Positions 2,560 through 56,659 of a stretch of 64,000 bases of DNA are shown piece by piece. Position 1 is the stretch's first letter; the number at the start of each line of letters is the position of its first letter. The notes under the pieces are model-generated. The model did no database searches, had not been told where the DNA came from, and saw only the letters and a program-made list of their open reading frames with translations. A program made the translations under genes and the position numbers. Location of the stretch: positions 37,424 to 101,423 of the IMG/VR virus record IMGVR_UViG_3300028364_000023; one strand, written 5' to 3'. Source of the DNA: a virus.

Positions 2560-3267
2560 CTACTTTTTAAAATTAATTAAACTATCTGCAAAGCGGTGAT
2601 TGGTGTCTCGATGACCCACTTCGTCCATTCTGACCACTATAATGACATCGCGCAAAGTCGCATCGACGGGCAATTTCCAATAGTCAATTGCAATCTGCGG
2701 CGCGGCCACGTTTTCCAAACGGCCGCTGTCCACCTCAGCCAGGTATTCGCTATAGCTGTAAACCGCCTCTTCTTCAAAATAACCCACTAGCCGATGTGCG
2801 GTGCGGCCCGAAACAACATAGAGAAACAGAAAGCTGGTGAAGAAAATTCCCTGCGCCAACAAAATCAACACCCGTTCCAGAAAGCTGGGCTGAGCAATTT
2901 GCACAAACGTCATCAGGTGCATGCGCTCGTTTTCAGCCTCTTCCAGCAGCGTGTGAATCCATTCCCGATTGTCCTCCATCCGACGGAGGGAGCGCATGTG
3001 CCCCAGCATTCCTCCGACCATTCCCGGTACTGCGGCTACGGTTTCCAATACTACCGCACGATGGCCATAGCGTTTGGCAAAAAATAGGTCTGCAAAAAAC
3101 CGCAACAGCCTGGTTAAGCGAAAGGCCACGCGGTCAGAAAACCCCGACGGAGTATGATGCTTGCTCAGCGGATCACTATGTTTGTCCAAGTTCATTTTAC
3201 ATAGTCTAGCATGAGCAGACTCTTTGCTATCATCTTTAAATTTCTTTCCACAGTGTACACATTTCAT
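2560..3267 (-). CDS. aox: Alternative oxidase (AOX), zinc-finger fusion
   Basis: AOX is a membrane-bound diiron ubiquinol oxidase that reduces O2 to water without heme and resists CO and cyanide. Visible motifs: LETVAAVPGMVGG (first Glu ligand), ENERMHLM (Glu and ExxH), a hydrophobic stretch FFTSFLFLYVV, FEEEAVYSYSEYL, and RMDEVGHRDTNH (final ExxH). All six expected diiron ligands appear present. The first about 24 residues, MKCVHCGKKF ... HARLC, form a C2HC-type zinc finger not usual in AOX; an internal ATG at 3195 would give a plain AOX but lacks a visible ribosome-binding site. GC counted by hand is 36/60 in two lines of the AOX body against 23/60 in a nearby phage line, which suggests recent transfer from a bacterium. 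Confidence 0.9.
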   Translation of the reverse strand: MKCVHCGKKFKDDSKESAHARLCKMNLDKHSDPLSKHHTPSGFSDRVAFRLTRLLRFFADLFFAKRYGHRAVVLETVAAVPGMVGGMLGHMRSLRRMEDNREWIHTLLEEAENERMHLMTFVQIAQPSFLERVLILLAQGIFFTSFLFLYVVSGRTAHRLVGYFEEEAVYSYSEYLAEVDSGRLENVAAPQIAIDYWKLPVDATLRDVIIVVRMDEVGHRDTNHRFADSLINFKK

Positions 3268-3331
3268 ATTTATCAGCTCAGAATTGATAGTTGTTATTTT
3301 CAATACTAGTAATGCTACAAATTTCTTACAC

Positions 3332-3362
3332 AAAAAAAGCCCAGTGCGTGTGCAGTGGGCTT
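3332..3362 (-). terminator. Rho-independent terminator
   Basis: Leftward hairpin AGCCCACTGC ... GCACTGGGCT followed by seven T. It ends the 6.2-3.5 kb operon and separates it from the alternative oxidase gene. The remaining 3363-3530 stretch shows no gene. Confidence 0.8.
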
Positions 3363-3536
3363 GTAAAGTGTCGAACTGTTCTTTCGCTCTACACCAAACC
3401 CACCATAACACTATTACTCGAATTATTCCAAGTAGTTGTTAGTGATGACAGCAGTGTAGTAAGTTTCATTAAAAGCGTTAGTTCCTTTGTTATACGTTTA
3501 TTTATCTCTTTGCAGACTTTTTAACCTGCTAATGGT

Positions 3537-11504: not shown

Positions 11505-11533
11505 AGTGTAAAGTCAGTTGATGTCCTTGTCAA
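11505..11533 (-). promoter_or_regulatory. sigma70-type promoter
   Basis: TTGACA-N17-TACACT reading leftward, about 40 nt upstream of the start at 11464. It overlaps the end of the phosphatase gene. Confidence 0.75.
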
Positions 11534-12009
11534 CTGTTTTCTTTTCCGAGGCGCTTCTCTAGATCACCGTAATATTGTCGTTGGGTGGGTACTCCTGCTT
11601 GCTCTAACAAAGTGTAGAACACCCACAAGTTATGTCCTGCGTAAGTGTCTAAGTATACGTCATTTAGTCCGTAATACTCGTTAGCAAACTTAGCAACAGC
11701 ACCACTTCGTGAAATTCCAGCAAAGCAATGTACTATCACGTCTTTTTTCTTCCTAAAGGATTGCTCTAAGAAGTTGCAGATAGTTTCGGCTTTTTTAGAA
11801 TCAAATCCGCTGCTACTGTCGTCCATATCTGCAAACCGAAGAAACACAGCGGCGTTCGCGTGTTTTTTATTAGCTAGCCACAACTCCTTCATCTGTTCAG
11901 CTTCTTTATGGGTATCTGAAATACTAACTAAGTCGCAATCGGCGTCAGCGAAGTGATTTTTGCTGATGTACTTTTTGGCATCTCCTCGACTTACAAATTT
12001 AACGTTCAT
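11530..12009 (-). CDS. Dual-specificity/tyrosine phosphatase-like protein
   Basis: 159 residues with the CX5R active-site loop VHCFAGISRSGAVAKF and an upstream Asp-rich stretch (RFADMDDSS) that could supply the general acid. This is the cysteine-dependent protein phosphatase fold. Related predicted phosphatases occur in cyanophages and other T4-like phages, where the target (protein, RNA 5' end or lipid) is unknown. Encoded between the SLOG-like gene and a new operon. Confidence 0.75.
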   Translation of the reverse strand: MNVKFVSRGDAKKYISKNHFADADCDLVSISDTHKEAEQMKELWLANKKHANAAVFLRFADMDDSSSGFDSKKAETICNFLEQSFRKKKDVIVHCFAGISRSGAVAKFANEYYGLNDVYLDTYAGHNLWVFYTLLEQAGVPTQRQYYGDLEKRLGKENS

Positions 12010-12012
12010 ATT

Positions 12013-12483
12013 TTATTCCTTAATATTTGTTAGTTTGTTAGCAAGTTCACTAACATGGTCGTTGTTAAACATATTATATACAGTAATTCCAAAATCAGCA
12101 GCAATGCGCAGAGCTTGCCCTGTCCCACCACTTGCTTTTCCGTCTCTAGTCCAGCAAATTATAAAGTCAACGGGAGTGTCACCGTCTCGTCCTAGTATCT
12201 GCATTGCATTGCGGTTCATCAACATCCACGCCTTATCTGACAACGCACTAGGATTAGGATGAAAATGTTGAGTAAACACTAGTGTCCATGCAGGCGAATC
12301 TGCCCGAGGAAGAAATATTTCTGCTCGGTTTTTGGCTCCGTTTTCAAACGCACGATCTGCGCCAAGTGCTCCTCCACTGCGCAATATATACCCGTTGTCT
12401 GCTAATATACTAGCAATGTTGGTCATGTCGGTCTGTATATTATCAGGAGTTACCCGAGAGCCGATTCCGGCATAGTATTTCAT
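12013..12483 (-). CDS. SLOG-like nucleotide-binding protein
   Basis: 156 residues, starting MKYYAGIGSRVTPDNI, with LRSGGALGADRAFENGAK and GGTGQALRIAADFGITVYN. The GIGSRxTP ... SGGAxGAD ... GGTxQAxxIA pattern is the Rossmann-like SLOG/DprA-type fold, members of which bind nucleotides, often NAD- or ADP-ribose-derived molecules. Near the nicotinamide/ADP-ribose operon, a role as sensor or sponge is conceivable but unproven. Confidence 0.65.
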   Translation of the reverse strand: MKYYAGIGSRVTPDNIQTDMTNIASILADNGYILRSGGALGADRAFENGAKNRAEIFLPRADSPAWTLVFTQHFHPNPSALSDKAWMLMNRNAMQILGRDGDTPVDFIICWTRDGKASGGTGQALRIAADFGITVYNMFNNDHVSELANKLTNIKE

Positions 12484-12815
12484 TATTTGTTCCAGTCATG
12501 CTCCTTGCCGAATCCGCAACTATCTTCGCCTTGGGGCGGAATCTCTAGTTCGTAGTAAGAGTTTCCGCAAGGCCTGTCCTCGCATTCGAATTCCATTCTA
12601 AACCCGCGACTATTAAACAAATCGACAATCTCGGCAGGAACTTTGCCAGCAAACAGTGGGTTAATGATAAACACCGCAGTTGTTAGTTTAATCTTATTTT
12701 TTTGCGCTTTCTCAAATCGAGGAATAATAATTTGCTCTAGAAATCCGTCTAGCGCAGTATTGTCTACTTCACCTGCCTTAATCATCCGATTGTAAACATC
12801 GCCTGCTGTGATCAT
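12483..12815 (-). CDS. Phage protein of unknown function
   Basis: 110 residues, MITAGDVYNRMIKAGEVDNT ..., with a C-terminal segment containing ECEDRPCGNSYYELEIPPQG. No recognised domain. First gene of an operon behind a consensus promoter; its last base overlaps the SLOG-like gene start. Confidence 0.55.
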   Translation of the reverse strand: MITAGDVYNRMIKAGEVDNTALDGFLEQIIIPRFEKAQKNKIKLTTAVFIINPLFAGKVPAEIVDLFNSRGFRMEFECEDRPCGNSYYELEIPPQGEDSCGFGKEHDWNK

Positions 12816-12825
12816 TTTATTCTCC

Positions 12826-12885
12826 TAAAAAAAAGCGTGTTGTGTATTATACTCTAAGTATATACTACAACACGCTGATTGTCAA
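12826..12885 (-). terminator. Terminator hairpin with an embedded sigma70-type promoter
   Basis: Leftward hairpin AGCGTGTTGT ... ACAACACGCT followed by eight T terminates the nicotinamide operon. The same stretch holds TTGACA (12885-12880), N17, TATACT (12862-12857), a consensus promoter for the next operon. Terminator stem and promoter share bases. Confidence 0.8.
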
Positions 12886-12894
12886 CCTCTAAGA

Positions 12895-13704
12895 TTAACC
12901 CTGTATACGCTGCCTGATCTCACCCAAGCTGGTTTGGTTGTAGAGCTTGCTGTCCTTAAACACAGTCTTTAGCTCACCGCCTGCTTCTTCAGCCCACGTT
13001 ACTTGGTCTTGCATTACGTATTCTCCGTCTACTAGATCAACACGTAACAAACCTTTAGCACTCTTCTTTGTGCCGCTGTCTGTTGCTGGGTCTTTAAAGA
13101 TTTCACGTCCTACTCCGTTGACCTCACCATAGGTTGCCTTCATTGCAAACCCCATGCTGTCGCGTGTGTTGTACTGGTAAGTGTATGACCCCACTCCAAG
13201 AACAACGTTGCTGCTAGCAAAGCCTTTGTCTGCCAGTCTGCGTAGAATTGCGTGTGCGCGTTCTAGCGTAATGCTATCGCCATAGATTAAGCCAATATGC
13301 TCGTCTAATTCTCTATAACCACAGTCGGTTAGCGTACCACCAAAAGTGTCCCACAGGCATTCGATAGCGCCTTTGACTTCTGCAGGAGACAGTGTGATAC
13401 CGTCCTTGTAGCTAATGAGCTCACCGTCTTCTTCGATGTAATATTCGTCTTCAGTGTAGCCTGTGATGATCTTTACAGGGTCTCCGCTGTCTGGACGCAA
13501 CACTACCTTGTTAAGGCCAATGGCGTTTGGTTGGCGAGCCATAATAACGTCTTTGAGCGCAGGAATATACTCAGTAACCACAGTCCAAAAGTCCCACGTG
13601 TCACTAACAATAGATACAAGCCCTGTTGGATACAGGTCTTCGACCAAGTGCCGAAACAGTTCCTGCTCGCAGTAGTTCATGATTTCTTTTTCGGTATACG
13701 ACAT
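12895..13704 (-). CDS. Nicotinamide phosphoribosyltransferase, C-terminal piece
   Basis: 269 residues homologous to the C-terminal half of NAMPT/NadV: PTGLVSIVSDTWDFWTV, LRPDSGDPVKI, GLIYGDSITLERA, NVVLGVGSYTYQYNTRDSMG, IFKDPATDSGTKKSAKGL. These bind the ribose-phosphate/PPi side of the active site. The piece begins MSYTEKEIMNYCEQ with its own GGAAA site, so it can be translated separately. The N-terminal half lies at 14387-15238, beyond an HNH gene on the opposite strand. The enzyme family makes NMN from nicotinamide and PRPP. In NARP1 phage systems a related enzyme uses ADP-ribose pyrophosphate instead. Confidence 0.85.
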   Translation of the reverse strand: MSYTEKEIMNYCEQELFRHLVEDLYPTGLVSIVSDTWDFWTVVTEYIPALKDVIMARQPNAIGLNKVVLRPDSGDPVKIITGYTEDEYYIEEDGELISYKDGITLSPAEVKGAIECLWDTFGGTLTDCGYRELDEHIGLIYGDSITLERAHAILRRLADKGFASSNVVLGVGSYTYQYNTRDSMGFAMKATYGEVNGVGREIFKDPATDSGTKKSAKGLLRVDLVDGEYVMQDQVTWAEEAGGELKTVFKDSKLYNQTSLGEIRQRIQG

Positions 13705-13720
13705 AAAATTTCCTTTTTTG

Positions 13721-13728
13721 TATAAATA
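13721..13728 (+). promoter_or_regulatory. T4-type late promoter for the HNH gene
   Basis: TATAAATA on the plus strand, 22 nt upstream of the HNH start codon. It would make the endonuclease a late gene oriented against the interrupted operon. Confidence 0.55.
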
Positions 13729-13749
13729 CACATAACGGAGTGTAAAATA

Positions 13750-14475
13750 ATGAATTACATAAAAACTTATAACGCTATAATAGCACAGTTTGGGCAACGT
13801 GTCAAGCCAAAAGACGTTTATTCTGAAAGGCACCATATTGTTCCTAAGTCGATCGGCGGAACCAACTGTTCTACTAATTTAGTATACTTGTCTGCTCGTG
13901 TACATTTTATATGTCACAGGATGCTTTGTAAGATATATCCAGAATCTGATAAACTAAAATTTGCTTTCTGGGCAATGAACAATCAACTTAACGGTGATGT
14001 TCAACGATACTACAAAATTACTTCTCGAACATTTCAGACTGCTAAAGAGCAATTTGCTATTGCTAATTCTAACTTACATTCTGGAAAAACACTATCGCCT
14101 GAGCACATTAATATTATTAGACAACTTATTAAAACTAACAACCCTCATAAAGGTGGTAAAGAATCTCACTTATATAACATACCAAGAACACCTGACGTTG
14201 TCGACAAGATAAGAAATACAAAACTTGCGCATCCTGAAAGGAATGCTAACTTTAAGGGGCACTATGTAACCCCTAAAGGAACTTTCGGGTCTGCTCCGCA
14301 AGCAGCCCGAAGCACTCCTTATACCGCCGGAACAGTGCGCAACTTTTGCTCAAATCCTGACAGGATTGTTACTAAGCAAATGTTAACTAACCCTTGGCTA
14401 TCTGAAGAACACGTCGGTGCGCGTCTTCGAGACTTAGGTTGGGATTTTCTTCCAGCTGCTCGCCGATTAACTTAG
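13750..14475 (+). CDS. HNH homing endonuclease splitting the nicotinamide phosphoribosyltransferase gene
   Basis: 241 residues with the HNH core ERHHIVPKSIGGTNCSTNLV ... ARVHFICHRMLCK, a linker, and a C-terminal DNA-binding region (KGTFGSAPQAARSTPYTAGT) typical of phage Seg/NUMOD-type endonucleases. It lies on the opposite strand to the gene it interrupts, with a late promoter and AACGGAG upstream. Its last 89 nt overlap the 3' extension of the N-terminal piece. The insertion sits three codons past the catalytic Glu-His of the enzyme, a highly conserved site of the kind homing endonucleases choose. Confidence 0.85.
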   Translation: MNYIKTYNAIIAQFGQRVKPKDVYSERHHIVPKSIGGTNCSTNLVYLSARVHFICHRMLCKIYPESDKLKFAFWAMNNQLNGDVQRYYKITSRTFQTAKEQFAIANSNLHSGKTLSPEHINIIRQLIKTNNPHKGGKESHLYNIPRTPDVVDKIRNTKLAHPERNANFKGHYVTPKGTFGSAPQAARSTPYTAGTVRNFCSNPDRIVTKQMLTNPWLSEEHVGARLRDLGWDFLPAARRLT

Positions 14476-15238
14476 ATAAGTTTCCTACGTTACAGCTCAT
14501 GACCGAATGTTCGGTTGCAGGAATGCTACACCCAATCATTTCTTTAGCTGGATCTGCGTTGTAGTACTCTTCTAAATAGTCAATTGATGGAACACCGTCT
14601 GTGCCCACAAAGGACAGCAAGTGCCCGGCCCCTGAGCTTGCGGAATCGTGTAGTCCACTCATTCCCCGGAAGCTAAAGTCGTGACACTGAATAGGAACGC
14701 CATCGAGTGATGCGCCAGTTAGATTAGCATACTTTGTAAGTATTTCGCGATACTCTTTTGCGAGCGTAGCAACTACGCTTGGCTTCCACAGCTCTGAGCT
14801 CATCACGCTTTCAATGTAGTTAACCAGCCAGTAAAACTCTGGTACTGTATTCTTGACTGTAAGAACAGCTACTTTTTCCGGCACACTTACGCCTTCTGGC
14901 AGACCTTTAATCTCTAAAGGCAAATAGCCCAAGTCGTGTAATGCTTCGACGTGATCCATTGGCACAGCGCCGTCACCTAAGCTAGAGTCAAGTCTTCTTT
15001 GATACTTGGCTACAACTTCTGCCTTTGGCTTGTTGAAGAAAGTTTCGTTCCACATATCAATGAGGAACCATTTGCAGAATCCCTGTAGTCCGAACACTAC
15101 AGTCTCAGTAGCGTTGCCTTTGTACAGGCGCATACTGCGTGGTGTAAAGTTGCTGTAGACTAGCTCAGTACCTTCTGGGTACTGGCGTCTGTGATCTGCT
15201 TTGTAAAAGTCGATTGCTGAAAGGGCGTCTAATCTCAT
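14387..15238 (-). CDS. Nicotinamide phosphoribosyltransferase, N-terminal piece
   Basis: 283 residues. Family signatures: DFYKADHRRQYPEGTELVYS, FTPRSMRL, GLQGFCKWFLI, HDFSFRGMSGLHDSASSGAG, FVGTDGVPSIDYLEEYY, then SIPATEHSVM, whose EH corresponds to the catalytic Glu-His (His247 in human NAMPT). Homology stops right after SVM(S). About 35 unrelated residues from the HNH-flanking DNA follow before a stop. A functional enzyme would require association of the two pieces or RNA-level joining. Its role is nicotinamide salvage to NMN, or the NARP1-type transferase reaction. Confidence 0.85.
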   Translation of the reverse strand: MRLDALSAIDFYKADHRRQYPEGTELVYSNFTPRSMRLYKGNATETVVFGLQGFCKWFLIDMWNETFFNKPKAEVVAKYQRRLDSSLGDGAVPMDHVEALHDLGYLPLEIKGLPEGVSVPEKVAVLTVKNTVPEFYWLVNYIESVMSSELWKPSVVATLAKEYREILTKYANLTGASLDGVPIQCHDFSFRGMSGLHDSASSGAGHLLSFVGTDGVPSIDYLEEYYNADPAKEMIGCSIPATEHSVMSCNVGNLSKLIGEQLEENPNLSLEDAHRRVLQIAKG

Positions 15239-15251
15239 ATGTTTCTCCTAG

Positions 15252-15602
15252 TTATTTTTCGTCTGTAATTGATTTAAAGTGATGTGACATTGACTGCCAG
15301 CTAGTGAGTTCTTCGTATTTTAGACTCTGCTTCTGATTGCATTTAGGACAATTCCACATAATTCCGTCTCGATCCCAATAGTCTCCTCCAGTGCATCCGT
15401 GTGGTTCTACGTAGTAATTTTTTTGTATAGCATCAGTATCGCGCAGTGTTGAGAACTTTTTACATTCAGGACACTTGTACTTTAGCTTGCCCTGATTTAC
15501 TTTGATCTTTAAACGAAGCTTATCAATCTCAGTTTCAGCAGAGTCCATCTCGTCGATTAGTGTTCGATTTGATTTATAGTCTCTTAAACTCTCAGGTATC
15601 AT
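15252..15602 (-). CDS. Zinc-ribbon protein with coiled-coil N-terminus
   Basis: 116 residues: an N-terminal helical stretch (DEMDSAETEIDKLRLKIKVN) and then two zinc knuckles, CPECKK and CPKCNQ, flanking a CTGGDYWD segment. Looks like a nucleic-acid- or protein-binding zinc ribbon. Overlaps the macro-domain gene by 11 nt, so it belongs to the nicotinamide/ADP-ribose operon. Confidence 0.6.
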   Translation of the reverse strand: MIPESLRDYKSNRTLIDEMDSAETEIDKLRLKIKVNQGKLKYKCPECKKFSTLRDTDAIQKNYYVEPHGCTGGDYWDRDGIMWNCPKCNQKQSLKYEELTSWQSMSHHFKSITDEK

Positions 15603-16122
15603 CGCTGTCTCCGTTAAAACATACTACTGTAAGATCACTAAAGTTCATACTAGCAATAATGCTTTCTATTGTGGTCCAGTCTCCGTTTGCTGCTCCGCTT
15701 CCTATCATTGGAATGCCAATTCGCACAGGAGCCATTGGATTCATATCGTACAACAGTTTAATCTGCTTAAACACTTGTGATACAGCTTCGTAGTTAACAT
15801 ATATTGAGTGGTCGTAGCCGTAGTGATCCTGTGTGTATGCATTGAGTAGCGTAAACGAGTATCGGTATTGATATAAGCCACGACTTCCCTTTTCGGGTGG
15901 AAACATAGAGGTACCGTCAATGTTTGCTTGCGTGAAGCACCCTAGTTTGTCGCTGTCGCCTTTCTGTGTTAGCTGATCTGCCATATATGCTTTCGGGTAG
16001 CGATCACGAATTTGTTTAGCAATACCACTTTCCATTCTATTCTGGCAGCTACAACCGTGTACAATAATATCGAATTTGCCTTGCTCTGCTATGTCTAACA
16101 AATTGCCGTCTACGTATTTCAT
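15592..16122 (-). CDS. Macro-domain (ADP-ribose-binding) protein
   Basis: 176 residues starting MKYVDGNLLDIAEQGKFDII, with VHGCSCQNRMESGIAKQI, KLGCFTQANI and RIGIPMIGSGAANGDWTTIE. These match the macro-domain core (GDLL, VHGxNxxxxMGxGIA, IPxIGxGxxGxxW) of the Poa1p/ADP-ribose-1''-phosphate phosphatase type. It binds or dephosphorylates ADP-ribose derivatives. Start chosen 2 nt after the stop of the PRPP-synthetase-like gene. Its place between that gene and the nicotinamide enzyme argues for a role in NAD/ADP-ribose turnover. Confidence 0.8.
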   Translation of the reverse strand: MKYVDGNLLDIAEQGKFDIIVHGCSCQNRMESGIAKQIRDRYPKAYMADQLTQKGDSDKLGCFTQANIDGTSMFPPEKGSRGLYQYRYSFTLLNAYTQDHYGYDHSIYVNYEAVSQVFKQIKLLYDMNPMAPVRIGIPMIGSGAANGDWTTIESIIASMNFSDLTVVCFNGDSDDT

Positions 16123-16123
16123 A

Positions 16124-17008
16124 TTACGCCCTTGTAATGTCGAACACACTAACAGGAATGCTGGTGTGTTCTGGAATGTTATCTTTAAAAATATTGGTTG
16201 TAATCACTTGATCAATAACTTTAGCAATTTCAGTAAATCCTTTGCTGAAGATACCGTGCGGCACAGCTAGGATTACTTTACTAGCACCCTTTTCGCGTAG
16301 TGCTTCTGCCAGCTTAATAAACGTAAATCCACCGTCGCAGATGTCATCGTAAATGAGGCAAACTTTGCCTACAAGCTCTGGACCTGCGTGTACTGCTGTG
16401 CTAGTGATCTGTCCTGTGACCACATCACGCACCTTATCTGCCATTACAACGTCCACTTGCGGCAGGCGATGGTGTTTTGTAGTATTAAGCATTTGGGCAA
16501 ACCCAAGCGTTCGTTTCATTGCGCCTGCATCTGGCGATACAATAATGAGATCATTTTTCAAATCTCTTGGAATAGAGTCTGGAATAAAAAGATTCCAGTT
16601 TGAAGTATACAGGTTTTCGTCACAGTTGTTAAGCAATGCTGGAGCAACTTCACTGTGAGGCATTAGTACGTGTACGCGATCGAATTGCATAGCGTTGATT
16701 ATATCACAGAACACACGAATGCCGAGCGCTTCTCCTTCGACGCATACACGGTCTTGACGAGCGTAGGGAATGTAAGGCATTTTTAGTGTGATCTTTACAT
16801 TGTCTGCGTGTCTACGGATTGCGTCAGTGACCATAGCCAATTTGATAATCTCAGCTGAGCTGGTAAGGATAGCAGTAATATGCACATCCCACGCTGCGTG
16901 TCGCCTAGGACCACTAAATCGAATGTGCTCTTCACCGCCACTAAACGTAAACGATTCGTATGGAACGTTGTGTTTGCCGTTAGTATATGATGTCACTGTG
17001 ATTGTCAT
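16124..17008 (-). CDS. PRPP-synthetase-like enzyme (Prs/Adps family)
   Basis: 294 residues beginning MTITVTSYTNGKHNVPYESF. Family landmarks: MPYIPYARQDRVC (ATP-binding loop), MPHSEVAPAL, IVSPDAGAMKR, and CLIYDDICDGGFTF, which corresponds to the PRPP loop (usually VDDxxDTGGT). It makes PRPP from ribose-5-phosphate and ATP. In NARP1 operons the homologue (Adps) makes ADP-ribose pyrophosphate from ADP-ribose. Pairing with the nicotinamide enzyme and a macro domain fits either; I cannot separate them by eye. Confidence 0.85.
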   Translation of the reverse strand: MTITVTSYTNGKHNVPYESFTFSGGEEHIRFSGPRRHAAWDVHITAILTSSAEIIKLAMVTDAIRRHADNVKITLKMPYIPYARQDRVCVEGEALGIRVFCDIINAMQFDRVHVLMPHSEVAPALLNNCDENLYTSNWNLFIPDSIPRDLKNDLIIVSPDAGAMKRTLGFAQMLNTTKHHRLPQVDVVMADKVRDVVTGQITSTAVHAGPELVGKVCLIYDDICDGGFTFIKLAEALREKGASKVILAVPHGIFSKGFTEIAKVIDQVITTNIFKDNIPEHTSIPVSVFDITRA

Positions 17009-17009
17009 A

Positions 17010-17168
17010 CTATTTGCCTTCTTTGTTGTACATTTCGTAGGTACAGCAAGCTGCAAAGAATGCAAAGCCAACGACCCATCCGGTACCTTGGGTGAAGTAT
17101 GCTACTGCTGCCACTGCTCCCCAGATAGCAATGTTGCTAATGCCTTTGCCTAGTCCTTCAGTATCCAT
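17010..17168 (-). CDS. Small membrane protein
   Basis: 52 residues (MDTEGLGKGISNIAIWGAVA ...) with two hydrophobic segments, IAIWGAVAAVAYF and WVVGFAFFAACCTYEM. First gene of the nicotinamide operon. It starts behind AAAAAGGTAAG and ends one base before the PRPP-synthetase-like start codon. Confidence 0.65.
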   Translation of the reverse strand: MDTEGLGKGISNIAIWGAVAAVAYFTQGTGWVVGFAFFAACCTYEMYNKEGK

Positions 17169-17200: not shown

Positions 17201-17229
17201 AGTATAAGCTCAGTTGACGTCCTTGTCAA
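17201..17229 (-). promoter_or_regulatory. sigma70-type promoter of the nicotinamide/ADP-ribose operon
   Basis: TTGACA-N17-TATACT reading leftward, about 33 nt upstream of the start at 17168. Confidence 0.85.
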
Positions 17230-17838: not shown

Positions 17839-18129
17839 TTAATTATTCCAGGTGTTTTCGAAGGTGTTGTTATAGGTGTCACTGGGCGCTGGGTTACTAG
17901 TAGCTGAGTTACTATTGCAACTAATTCCGCGCCCGTCTTCACCGATAATTTGTGTAGGAGTGTTAGCTGTTGTAAACTTAACACCGTTGATACATTGTGT
18001 GTACTTTTGTTCTGATGTCGTGGGGTTGTTATGCTCTTGATAAGCCGGAATAGCAATTGCTGCTAAGATAAGAATAATAGCAACAACAATCATTAACTCG
18101 ATTAGTGTAAAACCCTGGTGCTTGTTCAT
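17839..18129 (-). CDS. Type IV pilin-like protein
   Basis: 96 residues beginning [18 protein letters not shown]. This is a textbook class III signal: short basic leader, G|F cleavage site, Glu5, then a hydrophobic helix to [11 protein letters not shown]. The C-terminal globular part has two Cys far apart (CINGVKF ... ISCNSNS), as in pilins with a disulfide loop. It would need the host prepilin peptidase. A pilin in a lytic phage genome is unusual; it may modify or poison host pili, or block superinfection. Starts 4 nt inside the upstream membrane-protein gene. Confidence 0.8.
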
Positions 18130-18552: not shown

Positions 18553-19443
18553 TTACTTGCCTAGTTGCATTTGTCCTGCTACTGTGCTAAGCATCTCTGC
18601 TGGCATAAACACCTTGTTACTGGAGCTAGCCATTGATTCCATTACTTGGAAGCTTTTGTACACCTTGTACTCTGGTGTCATTGACTCGCCCATGATCTTG
18701 TTGACTTGTGCTTCGGCCTCAGCTTTTTCAACGTCGATTTTTCGCTGCATGGTCTGTTCCTGTAGCTTACGATCAAGTTGTACCTTGCTGATTTCAAGCT
18801 GTGCAGCTTCTTGGTTAATCATCTCACGACGCTCTGCCGCATTTTCTTGCGCTTTCACAATAATTGTTGGGTATGCAAGGTCTGCAATGCCAATATATCG
18901 CACCATAAACGGAGTTCGTTCTGCGATGCTCTTAGATAGGCGTTCTGATAGCTGTGCGTTAATGGCCTCACGTGAGCTTGCAATTTCTGCAATAGTGTAC
19001 TGTGATAGGAACTCCCGTGCCTCGGCTCGGATGATATCTCGAGCGTAGGTCATATATACTTTTTCTAGCGGAATCATATACATACGCTCGCTATCGCCCA
19101 TTGGTGCCGGCTGTACTTTATTAAACACCTGCTCAAAGTCTTTAGACGCAAGTGACATAGTTGCCCGGATCTCGAACGTCATTAACAGCTTGTCTTGCGG
19201 CATAAACAGGTCCATGCTTTCTTTAAAGCTGCGGTCACTGGCATCAAGTACAACTAGCTTGTCACAATATGCATAACACATATCAAGTCGGAACTTGGAA
19301 GTTGGAATAATATTTGCTTTATATCCCGATTGAGACATAACCTTTGCAACTTGAGCAGGCCCTACCTCTACAACTTGGCCGCAGCCAACCATTGCAAGTG
19401 TAACTGCCATTACGGCAAATAGTTTCAGCATTGTCTTTTTCAT
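18553..19443 (-). CDS. SPFH/prohibitin-like lipoprotein
   Basis: 296 residues with a lipoprotein signal (LFAVMAVTLAMVGCGQ; lipobox VGCG). A SPFH/Band-7-like body follows (FEIRATMSLASKDFEQVFNK, YARDIIRAEAREFLSQYTIA, ERTPFMVRYIGIADLAYPT), then a long charged coiled coil (QENAAERREMINQEAAQLEI ... RKIDVEKAEAEAQVNKIM). This is the architecture of prohibitin/HflK-type membrane scaffolds, which often regulate FtsH or organise membranes. Related phage proteins occur in T4-like genomes. A role in envelope homeostasis is inference. Confidence 0.75.
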   Translation of the reverse strand: MKKTMLKLFAVMAVTLAMVGCGQVVEVGPAQVAKVMSQSGYKANIIPTSKFRLDMCYAYCDKLVVLDASDRSFKESMDLFMPQDKLLMTFEIRATMSLASKDFEQVFNKVQPAPMGDSERMYMIPLEKVYMTYARDIIRAEAREFLSQYTIAEIASSREAINAQLSERLSKSIAERTPFMVRYIGIADLAYPTIIVKAQENAAERREMINQEAAQLEISKVQLDRKLQEQTMQRKIDVEKAEAEAQVNKIMGESMTPEYKVYKSFQVMESMASSSNKVFMPAEMLSTVAGQMQLGK

Positions 19444-21416: not shown

Positions 21417-22607
21417 TTAACTTGTTTCATGATTAAGTATTGTAAGTTTATACAACCGCTTAATATTTTCGTCACTAGTCATAGCAGCTTCACCTGCAGG
21501 GAATCTTCCGCCAATTACATTCTGTGCGTATTCTAAAGATATGTCTGGATCTTTTGCAATAGCTGCCTCGCCCGGTGGCCACGTACCGTCGACTACGTGA
21601 AGTGCATACGCAAGGGACAAATAGCTTTTGCTAGCTATATAAGCAAGCGCTTCTTTGGTAAGGTCTTGTAAATCCCCGAATATTTCGTAGTTGGGTCCAT
21701 CTTCATCTTCATCTTCGTCTTCATTATTTTGTTCTAGTTGTTTAATTGTCTTTGCAGTGACACCTTTCAAATATTTAATAGATCCCGTTACATTTGTAGC
21801 AACTAGAGTTTGTAGTTGTTGATCTAATTCGACTAGACCGTTGGCTTGATATAGTATTATTAAATATCTTTTTATTGACTTTGCGTCCTTAACCCTCAAC
21901 AGCATTGTTTCAATTTTTGCACTGCGCCGCGGAGCATCCATTTGTACTAATTTTTCAATAAGACTTTTTAGATTCTCTAAGTCGGCTTTCATTACGTCTC
22001 GACTAGCAGTGGCTTGTTGGCCAACCTCAGTTTCTCCTCCGACTAGTTCGGCGTACTTGTTGCTGTCTAGTCCTGTTTGTTGATTGAATTCTTCCATAGA
22101 TAATGATGTATCTTGCTGGTCAAAATACTCTGGCCCTTTCTTTGTACTAACTGTCATGGCCCACATAGCACCATCTGACTGACGAAAGAAATAGATTAAT
22201 GTAACGCTGAAGTCACGAAAGTATTGTTCAAAATGGTTTTGAGTGGGTTTGGTTGTGCACCAATCACTGTTCTTGCCGTGAAAGCAACTGGCGTCCTTGT
22301 CCAATGGTACTACAATTAGCCACTCGTCAGTTTCTTCTAATACGTAGCTATTTCCTTTTTTAGTGCGAGCTTTTTGTTCTGAAGAGCTAGGGCGTTCGTC
22401 AATGGCTGTTACGTATTCAGTAAATGCAGACCATCCCTGTTTGCCCCACCAATCAATATTTCTTTCTTGACCTGAGATGCGATTGGCACTTACTAATTTT
22501 TTGAAGATATCAAAAGCACTTGCTACCTCTGTAGGATCCGCCTCCTGGCTAAACTTCTGTTGTACTTCCTTGTAACCTTCGGTTAATTTAAACTCGTTAT
22601 ATCTCAT
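21417..22607 (-). CDS. WCT/GEAAI family protein 1, predicted head-packaged
   Basis: 396 residues and the shortest repeat region of five paralogues. The N-terminus MRYNEFKLTEGYKEV resembles the T4 capsid-targeting sequence (M-x-x-x-EF) with an L-x-E cleavage site at residues 8-10. The shared domain (residues about 15-180) has RNIDWWGKQGWSAF, VPLDKDASCFHGKNSDWCTT and VTLIYFFRQSDGAMWAM. A helical linker with an acidic NEDEDEDEDG run follows, then only two 27-residue repeats (WPPGEAAIAKD, FPAGEAAMTSD). Function unknown; see the paralogues at 22634, 23956, 25746 and 39804. Confidence 0.75.
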   Translation of the reverse strand: MRYNEFKLTEGYKEVQQKFSQEADPTEVASAFDIFKKLVSANRISGQERNIDWWGKQGWSAFTEYVTAIDERPSSSEQKARTKKGNSYVLEETDEWLIVVPLDKDASCFHGKNSDWCTTKPTQNHFEQYFRDFSVTLIYFFRQSDGAMWAMTVSTKKGPEYFDQQDTSLSMEEFNQQTGLDSNKYAELVGGETEVGQQATASRDVMKADLENLKSLIEKLVQMDAPRRSAKIETMLLRVKDAKSIKRYLIILYQANGLVELDQQLQTLVATNVTGSIKYLKGVTAKTIKQLEQNNEDEDEDEDGPNYEIFGDLQDLTKEALAYIASKSYLSLAYALHVVDGTWPPGEAAIAKDPDISLEYAQNVIGGRFPAGEAAMTSDENIKRLYKLTILNHETS

Positions 22608-22633
22608 ACTGGTCCTTTATTTTTGTATGCCTA

Positions 22634-23944
22634 TTAACCGATGCCAAACCGTTTTTTGTATGCATTCCACGCCGATTGTGCTTTACGTATTGCATTCTCT
22701 CCTTTTAAAAATCGATCTTCTAGTACTTCTGTAGCATATCGAAAAGAGTAATTAGTGTGCGTGGCAATTGCAGCTTCTCCAGGAGGCCATGCTTTGTTGA
22801 GTACTGCATGTGCATACATAAATGAACCGGAGCTATTGTTGGCAATAGCAGATTCGGCTTCGGGCCACTCGCGTTTTAATATATCTCGGGCGTATAACGC
22901 TGCATAATAACCATCTTGTGCAATTACAACTTCGCCCAGAGGCCATCTACCCTTTATTACTATAGCAGCATAAGCAACAGCCAATGCTCCTCTACTAGCT
23001 ATATAAGCAAGTACTTGTTTAGTAGGATTTCGGACATTATTTATTACTTCACCAGGCGTAGCATTTCTTTCCATTATTTTAACTGTCTTTATACTAACGT
23101 CTTGTAAATATCTAACAGCATCAGTAGAAATATTAGCAACAAGAGTTTGCAGTTGTTGATCTATTTCCACTGGCCCACTTTGCTTGTGTAATATTTTAAA
23201 ATATTCTTCTATTAATCTTGGATCCTTAACCTGTAACATCATTGTTTCTATTTTTGCACTTCGTTGCGGAGCATCCATTTGTTCTAATTTTTTAAGAAAG
23301 TCCTTTAGATTTTTTAAACTAGCTCGCATTTCTTTACGACTAGCAGCAGTTTTTTTACCTATCTCTGTTTTACCGCCTACCATCTCAATGTACTTGTTGC
23401 TGTCTAGACCTGTCTGCTTGTTGAATTCAATTACATCAAGCGATTGGTCTTTTTGATTAAAGTATTCTGCTCCTTTATTTGGAGCAACAGCCATAGCCCA
23501 CATGGCGCCATCTGACTGACGGAAGAAATAGATCAGTGTAATAGCTTTGCCACGGAAGTACGATTCGAAGTGTGCTTGCGTTGGCTTGGTGGTACACCAG
23601 CTACTTTTTTTGCCGTAGAAACAACTGGCGTCTTTGTCTAGTGGCACTACAATGAACCAGTCAGCAGATTCCTCTATTACGTGACTCGTGCCTTTGTTTT
23701 TTCGCATCTTTTGTTCAGAAGAACTAGGTCTTTCATCAATTGCAGTCACGTACTCACTAAATGCGGACCACCCCTGTTTGCCCCACCAATCAATATTTCG
23801 TTCTTGGCCTGAGATGCGATTGTCACTGACCAACTTTTTGAACACGTCGAAAGCAGACGCTACCTCAGTAGGATCTGCTTCCTGACTAAACTTCAGTTGT
23901 ACTTCCTTGAAGCCCTCGTTTAGTTTAAATTCGTTATATCTCAT
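22634..23944 (-). CDS. WCT/GEAAI family protein 2, predicted head-packaged
   Basis: 436 residues. N-terminus MRYNEFKLNEGFKEV with the L-N-E processing-like site, then the shared domain with DKDASCFYGKKSSWCTTKPT. Four repeats of the pattern W-P-x-G/A-E-x-x-I-A-x-D ... A-Y-A-x-x-V/I-L (WPLGEVVIAQD, WPEAESAIANN, WPPGEAAIATH, FLKGENAIRKA). The last residues KRFGIG also end the paralogue at 25746, indicating recent exchange. In tandem with genes 1, 3 and 4, spaced 12-27 nt apart. Confidence 0.75.
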   Translation of the reverse strand: MRYNEFKLNEGFKEVQLKFSQEADPTEVASAFDVFKKLVSDNRISGQERNIDWWGKQGWSAFSEYVTAIDERPSSSEQKMRKNKGTSHVIEESADWFIVVPLDKDASCFYGKKSSWCTTKPTQAHFESYFRGKAITLIYFFRQSDGAMWAMAVAPNKGAEYFNQKDQSLDVIEFNKQTGLDSNKYIEMVGGKTEIGKKTAASRKEMRASLKNLKDFLKKLEQMDAPQRSAKIETMMLQVKDPRLIEEYFKILHKQSGPVEIDQQLQTLVANISTDAVRYLQDVSIKTVKIMERNATPGEVINNVRNPTKQVLAYIASRGALAVAYAAIVIKGRWPLGEVVIAQDGYYAALYARDILKREWPEAESAIANNSSGSFMYAHAVLNKAWPPGEAAIATHTNYSFRYATEVLEDRFLKGENAIRKAQSAWNAYKKRFGIG

Positions 23945-23955
23945 AATAGATCCTG

Positions 23956-25719
23956 TTAATTGTTACGAATCGGATTTAAAAAGCTTGAATACGCCCTTCT
24001 AAAATCATAATCTTTATCAATAGCAGCTTCACCTGGAGGCCATTTGCCTTTTATCACATCCTTTGCATAGGCATACGCAGTTGCAGCCTCTGCGGCAATA
24101 ACAGCCTCACCTTGTGGCCATCTGCCTCTTATGACATTTCTTGCGTAGTCAATAGAAGTATATGCGTCTGTAAGAATAGCAGCTTCACCTTCTGGAAACC
24201 TTCCTTTAATTATCAGGTCAGCATATTTATAAGCTGTTTCGGCATCTTGGGCAATAGCAGCTTCTCCTTCTGGAAACCTTCCTTTAATTATCTCGCGAGC
24301 ATACTTATAGGCCGTATCTGCATCTGAGGCAATAGCAGCCTCACCTTGTGGCCATCTGCCTCTTACGACATTTCTTGCGTAGTCAATAGAAGTATATGCG
24401 TCTTGTGCAATAGCAGCTTCACCAGGCGGCCACCTAACACGATCGTTGCCAAAGGTACTTCTGTTGATTACTGCGCTGGCATATCTATAGGCTGATTGTG
24501 TATCGGTAACAATAGCAGCTTCTCCCGGGGGCCAGGGGCCTTTAATTATCTGGTCAGCATACATATAGGCTGCTTCTGCATTTGTGGCAATAGCAGCTTC
24601 GCCGGGCGGCCACCTAACTTTCTCGTCCCAAGGCCCACCACCGTCGTTGATTACTTCTCTAGCATAGCTGAACGCTGATTGTGCATCTGCGGCAATAGCA
24701 GCTTCGCCTAGAGGCCACTGACCCTCGATCACATATCTTGCGTATGCGACTGCTAGTCTACCTGTGTCGGTAATGTATTCCATCGCTTCTTTAGAAGGGT
24801 GCCGCAAGTTTTTCATCATATGCCTGAGATCTTCTTGCCTTCCTAGTATTTTAACTGTCTTTACACTAACATTGTTCAAAAATCTAATACCAACCGCCCC
24901 ATCACCGCCAGCAACTAGACTTTGTAGTTGTTGATCTACCTCCACTGGTCCGCTATAATTATATAGTGTCCTTAAATAATCTTTTATTAGTCTAGAGTCT
25001 TTAACTTTCAACAGTAAGGTTTCAATCTTTGCACTTCGGCGTGGGTTACTCATTTGTTCTAATTTTTTAATGTAACCTGTTAAGGTGTTAAAGTCGGTCT
25101 TCATGATGTCTCGATTAATAGTGGCCTTTTGTCCAACATCAGTTTTACCGCCAACTAGCTCGGTGTATTTGTTGGGATCCAGACCTGTTTGCTTCTCGAA
25201 TTCTTCATCATCAAGCGAATCATCCTGCTGATCAAAATACTCTGCTTTTTTATTGGGATAAACTGCCATAGCCCACATGGCTCCATCTGACTGACGAAAG
25301 AAGTAGATCAGTGTAACGTCATAGTCGCGAAAGTAAGATTCGAAATGGCCTTGTGTTGGCTTAGTTGTGCACCAATCGCTTTTTTTACCGTGAAAGCAAC
25401 TGGCGTCCTTGTCCAGTGGGACGACAATAAACCACTCGGCAGTTTCTTCTAGTACATGACTTTCACCTTTGCCTTTTCGAGCTTTTTGTTCGGCCTCGCT
25501 AGGTCGTTCATCAATGGCGGTCACGTATTCAATAAACGCAGGCCACCCCTGTTTGCCCCACCAATCAATATTGCGTTCGTTGCCTTTGATGCGATTAGCA
25601 CTTACTAGTTTTTTGAACACGTCAAAAGCACTTGCTACTTCAGTAGGATCTGCTTCTTGACTGAACTTCTGTTGTACTTCCTTGTATCCCTCGTTTAGCT
25701 TAAACTCTTGATATCTCAT
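23956..25719 (-). CDS. WCT/GEAAI family protein 3, predicted head-packaged, nine repeats
   Basis: 587 residues. N-terminus MRYQEFKLNEGYKEV, then the shared WCT domain and linker. Nine repeats follow, most exactly 27 residues (81 nt), each built as GRWPxGEAAIAxDAxTAYxYAxxVI. Two are lengthened by inserts (GGGPWDEKVRWPPGE; RSTFGNDRVRWPPGE). Neighbouring repeat units are nearly identical in DNA, for example around 24100-24180 and 24345-24420, showing recent duplication. Each unit is predicted to be two short helices, giving an alpha-solenoid suited to protein binding. Confidence 0.75.
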   Translation of the reverse strand: MRYQEFKLNEGYKEVQQKFSQEADPTEVASAFDVFKKLVSANRIKGNERNIDWWGKQGWPAFIEYVTAIDERPSEAEQKARKGKGESHVLEETAEWFIVVPLDKDASCFHGKKSDWCTTKPTQGHFESYFRDYDVTLIYFFRQSDGAMWAMAVYPNKKAEYFDQQDDSLDDEEFEKQTGLDPNKYTELVGGKTDVGQKATINRDIMKTDFNTLTGYIKKLEQMSNPRRSAKIETLLLKVKDSRLIKDYLRTLYNYSGPVEVDQQLQSLVAGGDGAVGIRFLNNVSVKTVKILGRQEDLRHMMKNLRHPSKEAMEYITDTGRLAVAYARYVIEGQWPLGEAAIAADAQSAFSYAREVINDGGGPWDEKVRWPPGEAAIATNAEAAYMYADQIIKGPWPPGEAAIVTDTQSAYRYASAVINRSTFGNDRVRWPPGEAAIAQDAYTSIDYARNVVRGRWPQGEAAIASDADTAYKYAREIIKGRFPEGEAAIAQDAETAYKYADLIIKGRFPEGEAAILTDAYTSIDYARNVIRGRWPQGEAVIAAEAATAYAYAKDVIKGKWPPGEAAIDKDYDFRRAYSSFLNPIRNN

Positions 25720-25745
25720 AATGGTCCTTTATTTTTGTATTCCTA

Positions 25746-27482
25746 TTAACCGATGCCAAACCGTCGTTTATACTTCGGCCATAAGAACGTGTCGGCACGT
25801 ATTGCATCTTCACCTTCTAGGAATTGATCTTCTAGTACGTCTATGGCATACTCGTATGCTGCATCAGATAAAGTTGCCATAGCAGCTTCTCCTTCGGGCC
25901 ATTCTCCTTCGATTATTCCGCGAGCGTATACTAATGCACCGTAAGCGTCCTGAGAAATAACAGATTCGGCTGCTGGCCACTCACGTTCTAATATTTCAGT
26001 AGCATACATTGCAGCGTTGTACCCATCCAGCGCAATAGCATCTTCACCGGGTTTCCAACGTCCTCTTATTACCATTCTTGCGTACTGATAAGCCGCAAAT
26101 GATTCAGTAGCAATAGCATCTTCACCAGGAAGCCATCTTTCTTTTTTATTTTTTCCTTGATTAAGCACTTCAATAGCATACCTACTGGATGTAGAAGGGT
26201 CTTGTGCAATAGTCTCCTCACCTGCTGGCCACTTGCCTTTAATTATCTCGCGAGCATATTCTAGAGATGTTTCGGCATCTTTTGCAATAGCAGCTTCACC
26301 TGGCGGCCATGGCTTGTTAAGTACATCACGTGCGTATATTAATGATCCTCTAGGGCTTTGTGCAATAGCTGCCTCACCTGGTGGCCACCTAACTGGTTGT
26401 TCTTTGTCTTTGTTAATGACATCCAGTGCATAAATTGCTGCTCCTAGGCCGTCTTCCGCAATAGCAGCTTCGGCTTCGGGCCACGGACCTTTTATTATTC
26501 GACGTGCATACGCAGCAGCCAATGCTCCTTTACTAGCTATATAAGCAAGTGCTTGTTCAGTAGGGTGTAGCATATTGCTCATTGATTGATTAGGAGGTAG
26601 GTTTCTTTCTAGTACTTTAACTGTCTTTACACTAACATTTTGTAGATATTTGATAGCATCTTCAGCAGAGTTAGCAACTAAAGTTTGTACTTGCTGATCT
26701 ACTTCTACCGGCCCGTCGACTTCATGCAGTATATAGAAATATTCTTCTATTGACGTCGGATCTTTAACAACCAGCATCAGTGTTTCAATTTTTGCACTTC
26801 GTCGCGGGCTCCCCATCCGTCTCAGCTTTCCAATGTAACCTTGAAGAGTCTTCAAGTCAGCTTTCATCACGTCTCGACTAGCAGTGGCTTTTTGACCAAC
26901 TTCTGTCTTGCCACCAACCATTTCGATGTACTTGTTGCTGTTTAGGCCTGTTTGCTTATTAAATTGAGCAGACGACAACGATTCATCTTGTTGATCAAAG
27001 TATTCTGATCTTTTATTTGGGCTAACAGCCATGGCCCACATGGCTCCATCTAACTGACGGAAGAAATAAATTAGCGTAATACTACTGTCACGAAAGTATT
27101 GTTCGAAATGTGATCGAGTGGGTTTGGTTGTACACCAATCGCTTTTCTTACCATGGAAACAACTGGCATCTTTGTCTAGTGGCACTACAATCAACCACTG
27201 ACTAGAATCTTCTAATACGTGACTTTCGCCTTTCTTTGTGCGCTTGTCTTGTTCTGAAGAACTGGGCCTCTCGTCTATGGCTGTCACGTACTCAGCAAAT
27301 GCAGACCACCCCTGTTTGCCCCACCAATCAATATTGCGTTCTTGACCAGATATACGATTTGCATTTACTAGCTTTTTGAACACGTCGAAGGCAGATGCTA
27401 CTTCTGTAGGATCTGCCTCTTGGCTAAATTTTTGTTGTACTTCTTTAAAGCCCTCGTTTAACTTAAACTCGGTATATCTCAT
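25746..27482 (-). CDS. WCT/GEAAI family protein 4, predicted head-packaged, nine repeats
   Basis: 578 residues. N-terminus MRYTEFKLNEGFKEV, with the L-N-E site at residues 8-10. Shared domain with DKDASCFHGKKSDWCTTKPT, then nine more divergent repeats (WPEAEAAIAED, WPPGEAAIAQS, WPAGEETIAQD, WLPGEDAIATE and others) and the KRRFGIG terminus. First gene of the four-gene tandem, preceded by a TATAAATA late promoter and AGGATC. Late expression agrees with a virion protein. Confidence 0.75.
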   Translation of the reverse strand: MRYTEFKLNEGFKEVQQKFSQEADPTEVASAFDVFKKLVNANRISGQERNIDWWGKQGWSAFAEYVTAIDERPSSSEQDKRTKKGESHVLEDSSQWLIVVPLDKDASCFHGKKSDWCTTKPTRSHFEQYFRDSSITLIYFFRQLDGAMWAMAVSPNKRSEYFDQQDESLSSAQFNKQTGLNSNKYIEMVGGKTEVGQKATASRDVMKADLKTLQGYIGKLRRMGSPRRSAKIETLMLVVKDPTSIEEYFYILHEVDGPVEVDQQVQTLVANSAEDAIKYLQNVSVKTVKVLERNLPPNQSMSNMLHPTEQALAYIASKGALAAAYARRIIKGPWPEAEAAIAEDGLGAAIYALDVINKDKEQPVRWPPGEAAIAQSPRGSLIYARDVLNKPWPPGEAAIAKDAETSLEYAREIIKGKWPAGEETIAQDPSTSSRYAIEVLNQGKNKKERWLPGEDAIATESFAAYQYARMVIRGRWKPGEDAIALDGYNAAMYATEILEREWPAAESVISQDAYGALVYARGIIEGEWPEGEAAMATLSDAAYEYAIDVLEDQFLEGEDAIRADTFLWPKYKRRFGIG

Positions 27483-28502: not shown

Positions 28503-28718
28503 TTAACTTATGTATTCGTCAGTAACGCCGCTGTTCCATCGACTAATTGCTTGGTCGGCGCTGCTGCCGTATACTGTCCTGCCACACCCACAGTTATGTA
28601 TTTGACAGCATACATTCCACTCAGTGCGTTCTCTGTTTAACGGATACACACTGTCTATTCTGTCTAGTTCAGTATTGTTGTCTTTGCCACATACGCACAG
28701 TTTAAGTTTTTCTGTCAT
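28503..28718 (-). CDS. Lar-like zinc-ribbon protein
   Basis: 71 residues: LKLCVCGKDNN, then WNVCCQIHNCGCGRTVYGSS and DQAISRWNSG. The layout LKxCxxCG ... WxVxCxxCG ... AIxxWN is that of the restriction-alleviation (Lar)-like small zinc proteins found in many phages. A restriction-alleviation role is shown only for Rac Lar and its close relatives. Overlaps the macro-like gene by 4 nt. Confidence 0.6.
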   Translation of the reverse strand: MTEKLKLCVCGKDNNTELDRIDSVYPLNRERTEWNVCCQIHNCGCGRTVYGSSADQAISRWNSGVTDEYIS

Positions 28719-56605: not shown

Positions 56606-56659
56606 GTAATTATTAATGATACAAGGAATAGCCAATCAGCGTTTTAATAAATACAATTG

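Follow-up and report, generated by a model that had tools for sequence, protein, structure and literature searches.

Does a phage NARP1 operon still provide a working Namat when the gene for it is divided by a homing endonuclease? NARP1 is a recently described two-enzyme phage route that restores NAD+ after NAD+-depleting immunity, and the question arises from a 64,000-nucleotide stretch of an IMG/VR virus record (IMGVR_UViG_3300028364_000023; "the window" below) in which homologues of its two enzymes, Adps and Namat, are encoded together. An earlier note on this DNA had proposed an expanded NARP1 pathway, in which a single consensus promoter serves Prs-like, macro-domain, zinc-ribbon and nicotinamide-enzyme genes and a SLOG-like gene belongs to the operon that follows; the split of the Namat gene by a homing endonuclease was absent from that note.

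Operon layout and identity of the enzyme pair

The operon is read on the minus strand from a promoter (TTGACA-17-TATACT; 17201..17229) that matches 11/12 consensus positions and is one of just three sites at this consensus level in 7.6 kb. It is headed by a small membrane-type open reading frame (ORF) of 52 residues (17010..17168, from the ORF list), which had no relatives in the first set of NARP1 loci, followed by an Adps-like gene of the ADP-ribose pyrophosphate synthetase family (16124..17008, 294 residues; phrog_619, E 3e-79), a T4 Tk.4-like macro-domain gene with a Poa1p/TARG1 fold (15592..16122, 176 residues; phrog_335, E 1e-45) and a zinc-ribbon-like ORF recognized by its Cys positions (two CxxC pairs) and by weak Pfam matches only (15252..15602, 116 residues). 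Thus far the genes are those that had been named. The nicotinamide enzyme is of the expected family (nicotinamide phosphoribosyltransferase by sequence) but is not a single gene: it consists of a Namat N-half (14387..15238, 283 residues), with the NAM pocket and the catalytic His244 in residues 1–244, and a C-half (12895..13704, 269 residues) with its own ATG and ribosome site (AAGGAAA). Between them, on the plus strand and antisense to Namat, lies an HNH homing endonuclease gene (HEG; 13750..14475, 241 residues; phrog_655, E 2e-41). Inside the HEG, and directed at the C-half, is a promoter-like site (TTGACA-17-TATTAT with TG before the −10; 13777..13805, minus strand; 11/12), so the single promoter of the earlier note accounts for only part of the operon. 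The SLOG/DprA-like gene (12013..12483, 156 residues; phrog_768, E 3e-47) does belong to the next unit, which has a separate promoter (TTGACA-17-TATACT; 12857..12885; 11/12) and also contains a 110-residue ORF (12483..12815, from the ORF list) for which Pfam and PHROG searches gave no match; a neighboring gene of 159 residues is dual-specificity-phosphatase-like (11530..12009; PF00782, E 5e-8, slightly below the cut-off). The genes and the promoter of this unit, and the phosphatase-like gene, are on the minus strand. A search of phage records for the same operon found nothing near-identical.

The residues point to a putative NARP1-type pair. The Adps-like enzyme has the catalytic residues H118, D160, K192, R194, D221 and D222, and its PRPP loop reads DDICDGGFTF, compared with DDMIDTGGTL in E. 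coli Prs; in the family, the loop is DGGxTF where Prs has DTGGTL (G in 60/63 and F in 63/63 members), a trait derived in this analysis and not a published criterion, and ICP1 NrsA carries a variant of it (DDICDGAASF). The Namat signature is the SCH motif GSxPhi..TRD (PMC12774641), found in the C-half as GSYTYQYNTRD (residues 172–182) together with the active-site residues R70, D72 and GDS 142–144. Taking both halves together, 19 of 21 ligand and catalytic positions are identical to those of SpbetaL1 Namat, and the two that are not (A362S and F392Y) are both common among 63 relatives. The SCL stacking residue (Arg/Lys/Tyr) is kept, with R37 of the N-half aligning with the selectivity-loop R40 of SpbetaL1, and the core positions D13, Y15, F189, R192, D215, the catalytic His, R306 and D308 are identical here and in 63/63 relatives. 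The modeled N-half has its best structural match in Namat (9w5x; Z 26.4, rmsd 2.1, 251 aligned residues, 51% identity), ahead of NadV and Nampt.

These comparisons support the assignment to NARP1-type Adps and Namat, in agreement with what had been proposed, and the plain Prs and NAMPT residues that the earlier note had named as its refutation did not turn up. It is highly improbable that the pair is an ordinary Prs and Nampt with PRPP and NMN as its only products: the Pfam and NCBIfam names are indeed those of Prs and (nicotinate/nicotinamide) phosphoribosyltransferase, and Namat retains some PRPP activity in vitro (PMC12774641), but the selectivity-clamp motif and the R40 equivalent are present, the loop is of the Adps type and the nearest solved structure is a Namat. 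Like the NARP1 systems of SpbetaL1, ICP1 (NrsAB), DyoEdafos and Adele, the window has the gene pair in one operon, the Namat clamp and NAD+-contact residues, and the Adps-family loop. It differs from them in that macro-domain and zinc-ribbon genes separate Adps from Namat, and in that its Namat, uninterrupted in all characterized cases, is encoded as two ORFs on either side of a homing endonuclease gene. The core adds a new example to a known type. A contiguous Namat is not among the criteria stated for the pathway, and we have accordingly lowered the claim to that of a NARP1 operon whose Namat gene is split.

The divided Namat gene

In relatives, Namat is contiguous. The insertion point here is a length-variable surface loop (8–60 residues in relatives) right after the catalytic-histidine segment, and the insert comprises ∼0.8 kb (about 800 bases), 726 of which are the HEG, with a G+C content of 0.39 in the HEG and 0.47 in both Namat halves. 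Predicted order in the model of the N-half stops at residue 244, and the last ∼23 residues of this half are the antisense of the endonuclease C terminus. We considered whether the tail might be native Namat, given that alignments to long-loop relatives extend to residue 278; the tail alone, however, has no significant match, and since it is antisense to a genuine endonuclease C terminus, most of it appears to be insert-derived. The catalytic and NAD+-contact positions are all intact, distributed over the two ORFs. Neither half contains a stop, a frameshift or a lost active-site residue, and both diverge from their relatives at the rate seen between intact genes. The phage split has been seen in one genome only; Staphylococcus phage A3R, examined as another possible case, is an annotated deletion fusion instead.

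The closest full-length relative of the HEG is from Salmonella phage allotria, where it sits antisense within the gene for DNA polymerase, and a search of IMG/VR for an endonuclease relative at the same Namat site found none. An intein was ruled out because the Namat halves are in different frames and a stop closes the N-half. A group I or II intron was ruled out by an Rfam search that gave nothing intron-like at E up to 10 across 961 bases, with no match to the group I core RF00028 in the insert; of four comparable positive controls, the two T4 matches (td and nrdB, E 1e-6) and one in the related Nampt gene L144 (E 2e-6) were found at ∼1e-6. A self-splicing element of a type outside Rfam's reach, from which an uninterrupted Namat would be made, is very unlikely. 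The gene family does host such elements (the group I intron in L144 and, in the phage Namat L015, an intein beside the same catalytic histidine), and low-scoring introns can escape detection; against this stand the null search with its working controls, the HEG, which is antisense and takes up nearly the whole insert, and the promoter and start of the C-half, which would be needless.

Free-standing HEGs that turn a phage enzyme gene into two ORFs at a functionally critical region are known from nrdA/mobE of Aeh1 and gene 39/60 with mobA of T4 (PMC2988022). In Aeh1, the HEG-split nrdA retains full activity, and some HEGs contain promoters serving downstream genes (PMC2988022), as does the HEG here, in which the candidate promoter for the downstream half is embedded; the antisense orientation is shared with the allotria HEG. 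The host gene here differs in coding for a counter-defense enzyme and not a replication enzyme, and the activity of its split form is putative. A second divided Namat is found in the planctomycete Zavarzinella formosa, where an HNH gene splits the same post-catalytic-histidine loop, the active-site motifs are intact, an Adps gene lies immediately upstream and the C-half has its own ATG and ribosome site, being preceded by AAGGAGGAGG-ATTC-ATG. In contrast to the phage case, this locus is on a bacterial chromosome, and its endonuclease, unrelated and of another family (named by PHROGs and not by Pfam), is encoded on the same strand and overlaps both halves. A search of the Zavarzinella family for a conserved split found intact Namat genes only.

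The reading we favor, with a probability of about 0.6, is a phage NARP1 operon with a free-standing HNH HEG antisense in Namat, in which a two-chain Namat is the likeliest state and a recently killed gene the main rival. Against a two-chain enzyme stand the restriction of each split to a single genome, the intact relatives in the Zavarzinella family and the need for the half-barrel domain B to reassemble from two chains. According to the rival, a recent endonuclease insertion killed Namat, leaving two ORFs that are decaying as a pseudogene and a phage without NARP1. The insertion is seen in a single record, a degenerate Namat remnant is present in L129, and NARP1 is dispensable, with nrsB often inactivated in ICP1 isolates (PMC11559045), so that loss of Namat is evidently tolerated. 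We nevertheless consider this rival unlikely, if far from negligible: both halves are free of lesions and diverge no faster than intact genes, the C-half is equipped with a ribosome site, an ATG and an 11/12 promoter, and a bacterium has independently acquired this split, there with an even better ribosome site.

Macro-domain, zinc-ribbon and SLOG genes

The macro protein finds its best PDB fold matches in Poa1p (Z 17.6) and TARG1 (Z 17.1). It shares the fold and the conserved His with Poa1p, TARG1 and T4 Tk.4 (H22, Poa1p His23) but has Ser at position 25, where Poa1p has N26 and 85/85 scored macro relatives have Asn, and Arg at the position of Poa1p S30 (or Thr). The fold is that of the Poa1p-type ADP-ribose-1''-phosphate phosphatase branch, with the His23, Asn26, Ser30 set incomplete; because the conserved Asn is missing, the protein may bind its ligand instead of hydrolyzing it. 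KptA/Tpt1, as a source of ADP-ribose phosphate for a macro enzyme, was dropped, as PF01885 had no match in the record.

Macro genes were found within 3 kb of Namat in 7/11 groups, compared with 0.85 expected; near-duplicates were grouped by eye, and this direction of the test is unbiased and gives the count to trust. It should be noted that a first count (32/80 macro loci near NARP1, P 1e-10) is biased, because its query alignment was derived from NARP1 loci. The macro gene is therefore a recurrent NARP1 neighbor, as the earlier note's partnership implied, but the link had already been proposed for the Pakpunavirus Adele (PMC12846349), and the window's copy has lost the Asn. A role of the SLOG gene as an ADP-ribose-binding partner is not supported: it is in another transcription unit, and it lies near NARP1 in only some phages and far away in others.

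That the macro, zinc-ribbon and SLOG genes provide accessory steps of an expanded NARP1, for instance with the macro protein freeing ADP-ribose for Adps, is a possibility that we hold only tentatively. The above-chance proximity, the Poa1p/TARG1/DarG fold, the Adele proposal, the Adps-Namat-macro-SLOG clusters in Pakpunavirus and similar contigs, and the precedent of RyDEP, which is encoded in a NARP1 operon and releases ADPR (PMC13232231), speak for it. Weighing against it are the two substitutions in the macro protein, the inclusion of T4-type phages in most phage macro genes (2512 records), the SLOG genes distant from NARP1 in other records and a zinc-ribbon gene without relatives at other NARP1 loci.

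A possible two-chain route to NAD+

In the proposed mechanism, Adps would convert ADP-ribose to ADPR-PP, and the two Namat chains would come together as a single nicotinamide ADP-ribose transferase, with ADPR-PP and nicotinamide as substrates and NAD+ as product, whereby the phage could reverse NAD+ depletion by TIR/SIR2-type defenses. The macro protein probably acts on an ADP-ribose derivative; SLOG is a neighbor of uncertain relevance. More generally, we see even odds that Namat is workable as two chains, each transcribed and translated on its own, that such a layout has evolved on more than one occasion (phage and planctomycete) through the homing of mobile elements to the DNA of the catalytic-histidine loop, and that NARP1 phages may so gain independent control of the halves.

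New here is the Namat split by a homing endonuclease; the NARP1 pair and the speculation on a macro link were already known. The controlled macro-NARP1 co-occurrence makes the published guess of ADP-ribose recycling testable over many phages, and the widespread Adps-Namat pairs in bacteria cast doubt on bacterial NARP1 being rare. Counter-defense genes are themselves targets of homing elements, and keeping both suggests a cost to the phage or a gain in control. How much of the enzyme's architecture is required can be tested directly on a naturally split Namat.

A probable NARP1 pair and its neighbours

The window, taken from a 101,423-base IMG/VR virus record, carries two adjacent minus-strand transcription units, each headed by a consensus-match promoter. 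The first, behind a strong promoter at 17229–17201, comprises a 52-residue ORF, an Adps (Prs-like) gene (17008–16124), a macro-domain gene (16122–15592), a zinc-ribbon-like ORF (15602–15252) and, last, a nicotinamide phosphoribosyltransferase-family sequence (Namat); the second (promoter 12885–12857) comprises a 110-residue ORF, a SLOG/DprA-like gene (12483–12013) and a phosphatase-like gene (12009–11530). The earlier note listed these genes correctly but overlooked that an endonuclease gene splits Namat into an N-half and a C-half. Beyond the first unit lie a type IV pilin-like N-methylation ORF (17839–18129, minus strand) and an SPFH/Band 7 protein (18553–19443, minus strand).

Namat is recognized by a selectivity clamp: the motif GSxPhi1xPhi2xPhi3TRD, in which positions 3 and 7 are aromatic, together with an Arg, Lys or Tyr in the SCL (PMC12774641). 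The clamp of the C-half reads GSYTYQYNTRD, and in alignment the SCL residue R40 of SpbetaL1 Namat corresponds to R37 of the N-half. SpbetaL1 Namat has 21 positions that contact ligand or take part in catalysis (nine fall on the N-half, 12 on the C-half). Nineteen are identical in the window, and the two that differ, A362S and F392Y, are common among 63 relatives. The modelled N-half finds its best solved structure in a Namat (9w5x; Z = 26.4, rmsd 2.1, 251 residues, 51% identity), above NadV and Nampt. The NARP1 literature searched offers no residue criterion for Adps. Across 63 aligned family members, each adjoining a Namat or Namat-like gene, the E. coli Prs loop DTGGTL becomes DGGxTF (Gly in 60, Phe in all 63), the catalytic residues (His, Lys, Arg, Asp) are invariant, and the window protein conforms; ICP1 NrsA, which restores NAD+ in vivo (PMC11559045), carries a variant of this loop. 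Because the clamp, contact residues, structure match and Adps loop all fit, the pair very probably belongs to NARP1, as the earlier note had proposed, judged by sequence.

The macro gene is a recurrent neighbour of Namat. A search of 45 whole records for phrog_335, with Namat alone as the starting point, found a macro gene in 14; in 7 of 11 groups this gene and Namat were no more than 3 kb apart, where chance would give 0.85 (P ∼3e-6; at 6 kb, P = 1e-4). A macro-first search found Adps or Namat within 6 kb in 32 of 80 loci, all on the same strand, with a query built from NARP1 loci and thus biased. Closest in fold to the modelled window protein are Poa1p (Z = 17.6), TARG1 (17.1) and the DarG macrodomains (16.1). 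A macro enzyme that releases ADP-ribose for NARP1 was suggested earlier in the case of phage Adele (PMC12846349), and RyDEP is a demonstrated example of an ADPR-releasing partner within a NARP1 operon (PMC13232231). The macro partnership put forward earlier therefore holds as gene proximity, but in the window protein Ser replaces the Asn found in all 85 scored relatives, and the Poa1p Ser30 position holds Arg; these substitutions disfavour simple transfer of the releasing role to this phage, and binding or an altered role appears as likely as hydrolysis. The suggested SLOG partner is of uncertain relevance, the gene having its own transcription unit here and lying near NARP1 in Pakpunavirus and similar contigs and far from it in other records. 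The zinc-ribbon gene has no relatives at the other NARP1 loci examined. A second, divergent macro-like protein is encoded at 28715–29200 (minus strand; phrog_335, E = 2e-7).

A Namat gene in two halves

The N-half (15238–14387, minus strand; 283 residues) ends in a stop, and the C-half (13704–12895, minus strand) opens with an ATG of its own, preceded by an AAGGAAA ribosome site. Between them, on the plus strand and thus opposite to Namat, runs an HNH homing-endonuclease gene (13750–14475; phrog_655, E = 2e-41), whose 726 bases account for most of an insert of ∼0.8 kb with a G+C content of 0.39, against 0.47 in both halves. IMG/VR relatives are contiguous at this point, a loop of 8–60 residues that comes straight after the catalytic-histidine segment. 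About 23 residues at the end of the N-half are antisense of a genuine endonuclease C terminus; the AlphaFold model of the N-half (mean pLDDT 87) is ordered up to residue 244, with pLDDT below 50 for residues 245–276.

An intein is excluded, since the N-half stops and the endonuclease runs in the opposite direction. An intron is unlikely: when the insert was put through a permissive Rfam search, nothing intron-like appeared at E values up to 10, whereas the same tool recovered two T4 introns, td and nrdB (E = 1e-6), and a group I intron within the Nampt-type gene of L144 (E = 2e-6). In L144, a jumbo-size phage record, that intron is accompanied by an endonuclease (L144:1569–4128).

The insertion may instead have left a pseudogene, which we consider the main rival but the less probable reading; both halves lack signs of decay, and their rate of divergence from relatives does not exceed that between intact genes. 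We favour, with a probability of about 0.6, a Namat functional as two chains, which would be expressed separately, would assemble and would then be active. A promoter-like site facing the C-half (13805–13777, minus strand) lies within the endonuclease gene; it matches 11 of 12 consensus bases and has a 17-base spacer and an extended −10. The 7.6 kb scanned hold only three sites of this quality, all of them consensus matches, the other two heading the two operons. The single promoter of the earlier note is thus matched by a predicted site at the head of the operon but is not the only candidate for the C-half. With a functional two-chain Namat, the phage would use the counter-defence in its own host.

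Mobile elements at the catalytic-histidine loop

Among the best 80 bacterial matches, the Namat of Zavarzinella formosa is convergently interrupted in the same loop by a same-strand HNH gene of another family (phrog_1035). Its C-half start is preceded by a near-perfect ribosome site, AAGGAGGAGGATTCATG; Adps lies directly upstream, no intron was found in the gene, and the genes of other members of the Zavarzinella family are intact. The phage record L015, nearest to the window in gene order (Adps, macro, Namat), has an in-frame intein in the PATEHS segment of its Namat, inserted between the Ala and the Thr (L015:1263–3968) and similar to inteins of phage ribonucleotide reductase and PhoH families. 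In another record, a truncated Namat copy is followed by an HNH endonuclease and then by an intact Namat (L061:3429–6711). Three or more mobile elements of differing kinds thus occupy or adjoin this loop. Homing elements often target conserved active-site DNA.

A duplication like that of L061 is seen at nrdB in the window, where an endonuclease joined to the first nrdB codons (42385–43440, minus strand) lies directly upstream of intact nrdB (41263–42372, minus strand), whose start appears duplicated.

Endonuclease insertions split Aeh1 nrdA, with a fully active product, and T4 topoisomerase, and inserted endonuclease genes can hold promoters for downstream genes (PMC2988022). The best-covered relative of the window endonuclease is found in the DNA polymerase gene of Salmonella phage allotria, where it separates two CDS in antisense orientation, with no intron detectable at that insertion. 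Given these precedents, the way of splitting is known; as far as our searches show, Namat is a new target.

Bacterial pairs and other genes of the window

Adps lies within 5 kb of Namat in 75 of the best 80 of more than 560 bacterial stretches listed for Adps–Namat, nearly all with the clamp motif; by these matches, such pairs are common in bacterial chromosomes, more widely than the "limited number" of PMC12774641. L073 (CAKLQF020000015.1), labelled Acinetobacter phage MD-2021a, resembles a bacterial contig (transporters, an AraC regulator) and carries Adps, Namat and an NMNAT/Nudix-like gene.

The window further encodes five paralogous MRYxEFKLxEG genes with internal repeats (21417–27482 and 39804–41222, minus strand; the one tested had no Pfam match), a heme oxygenase (32589–33134, minus strand; PF01126) and a 5-aminolevulinate synthase (56657–57859, plus strand; TIGR01821, E = 3e-168, above cut-off); such phage alaS genes have been described (PMC11480375). 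It also encodes an alternative oxidase (2560–3411, minus strand; PF01786, E = 1e-82), which has no PHROG match and no phage report in the literature searched. This enzyme would reoxidise quinol, and its presence in the phage therefore bears on NAD balance.
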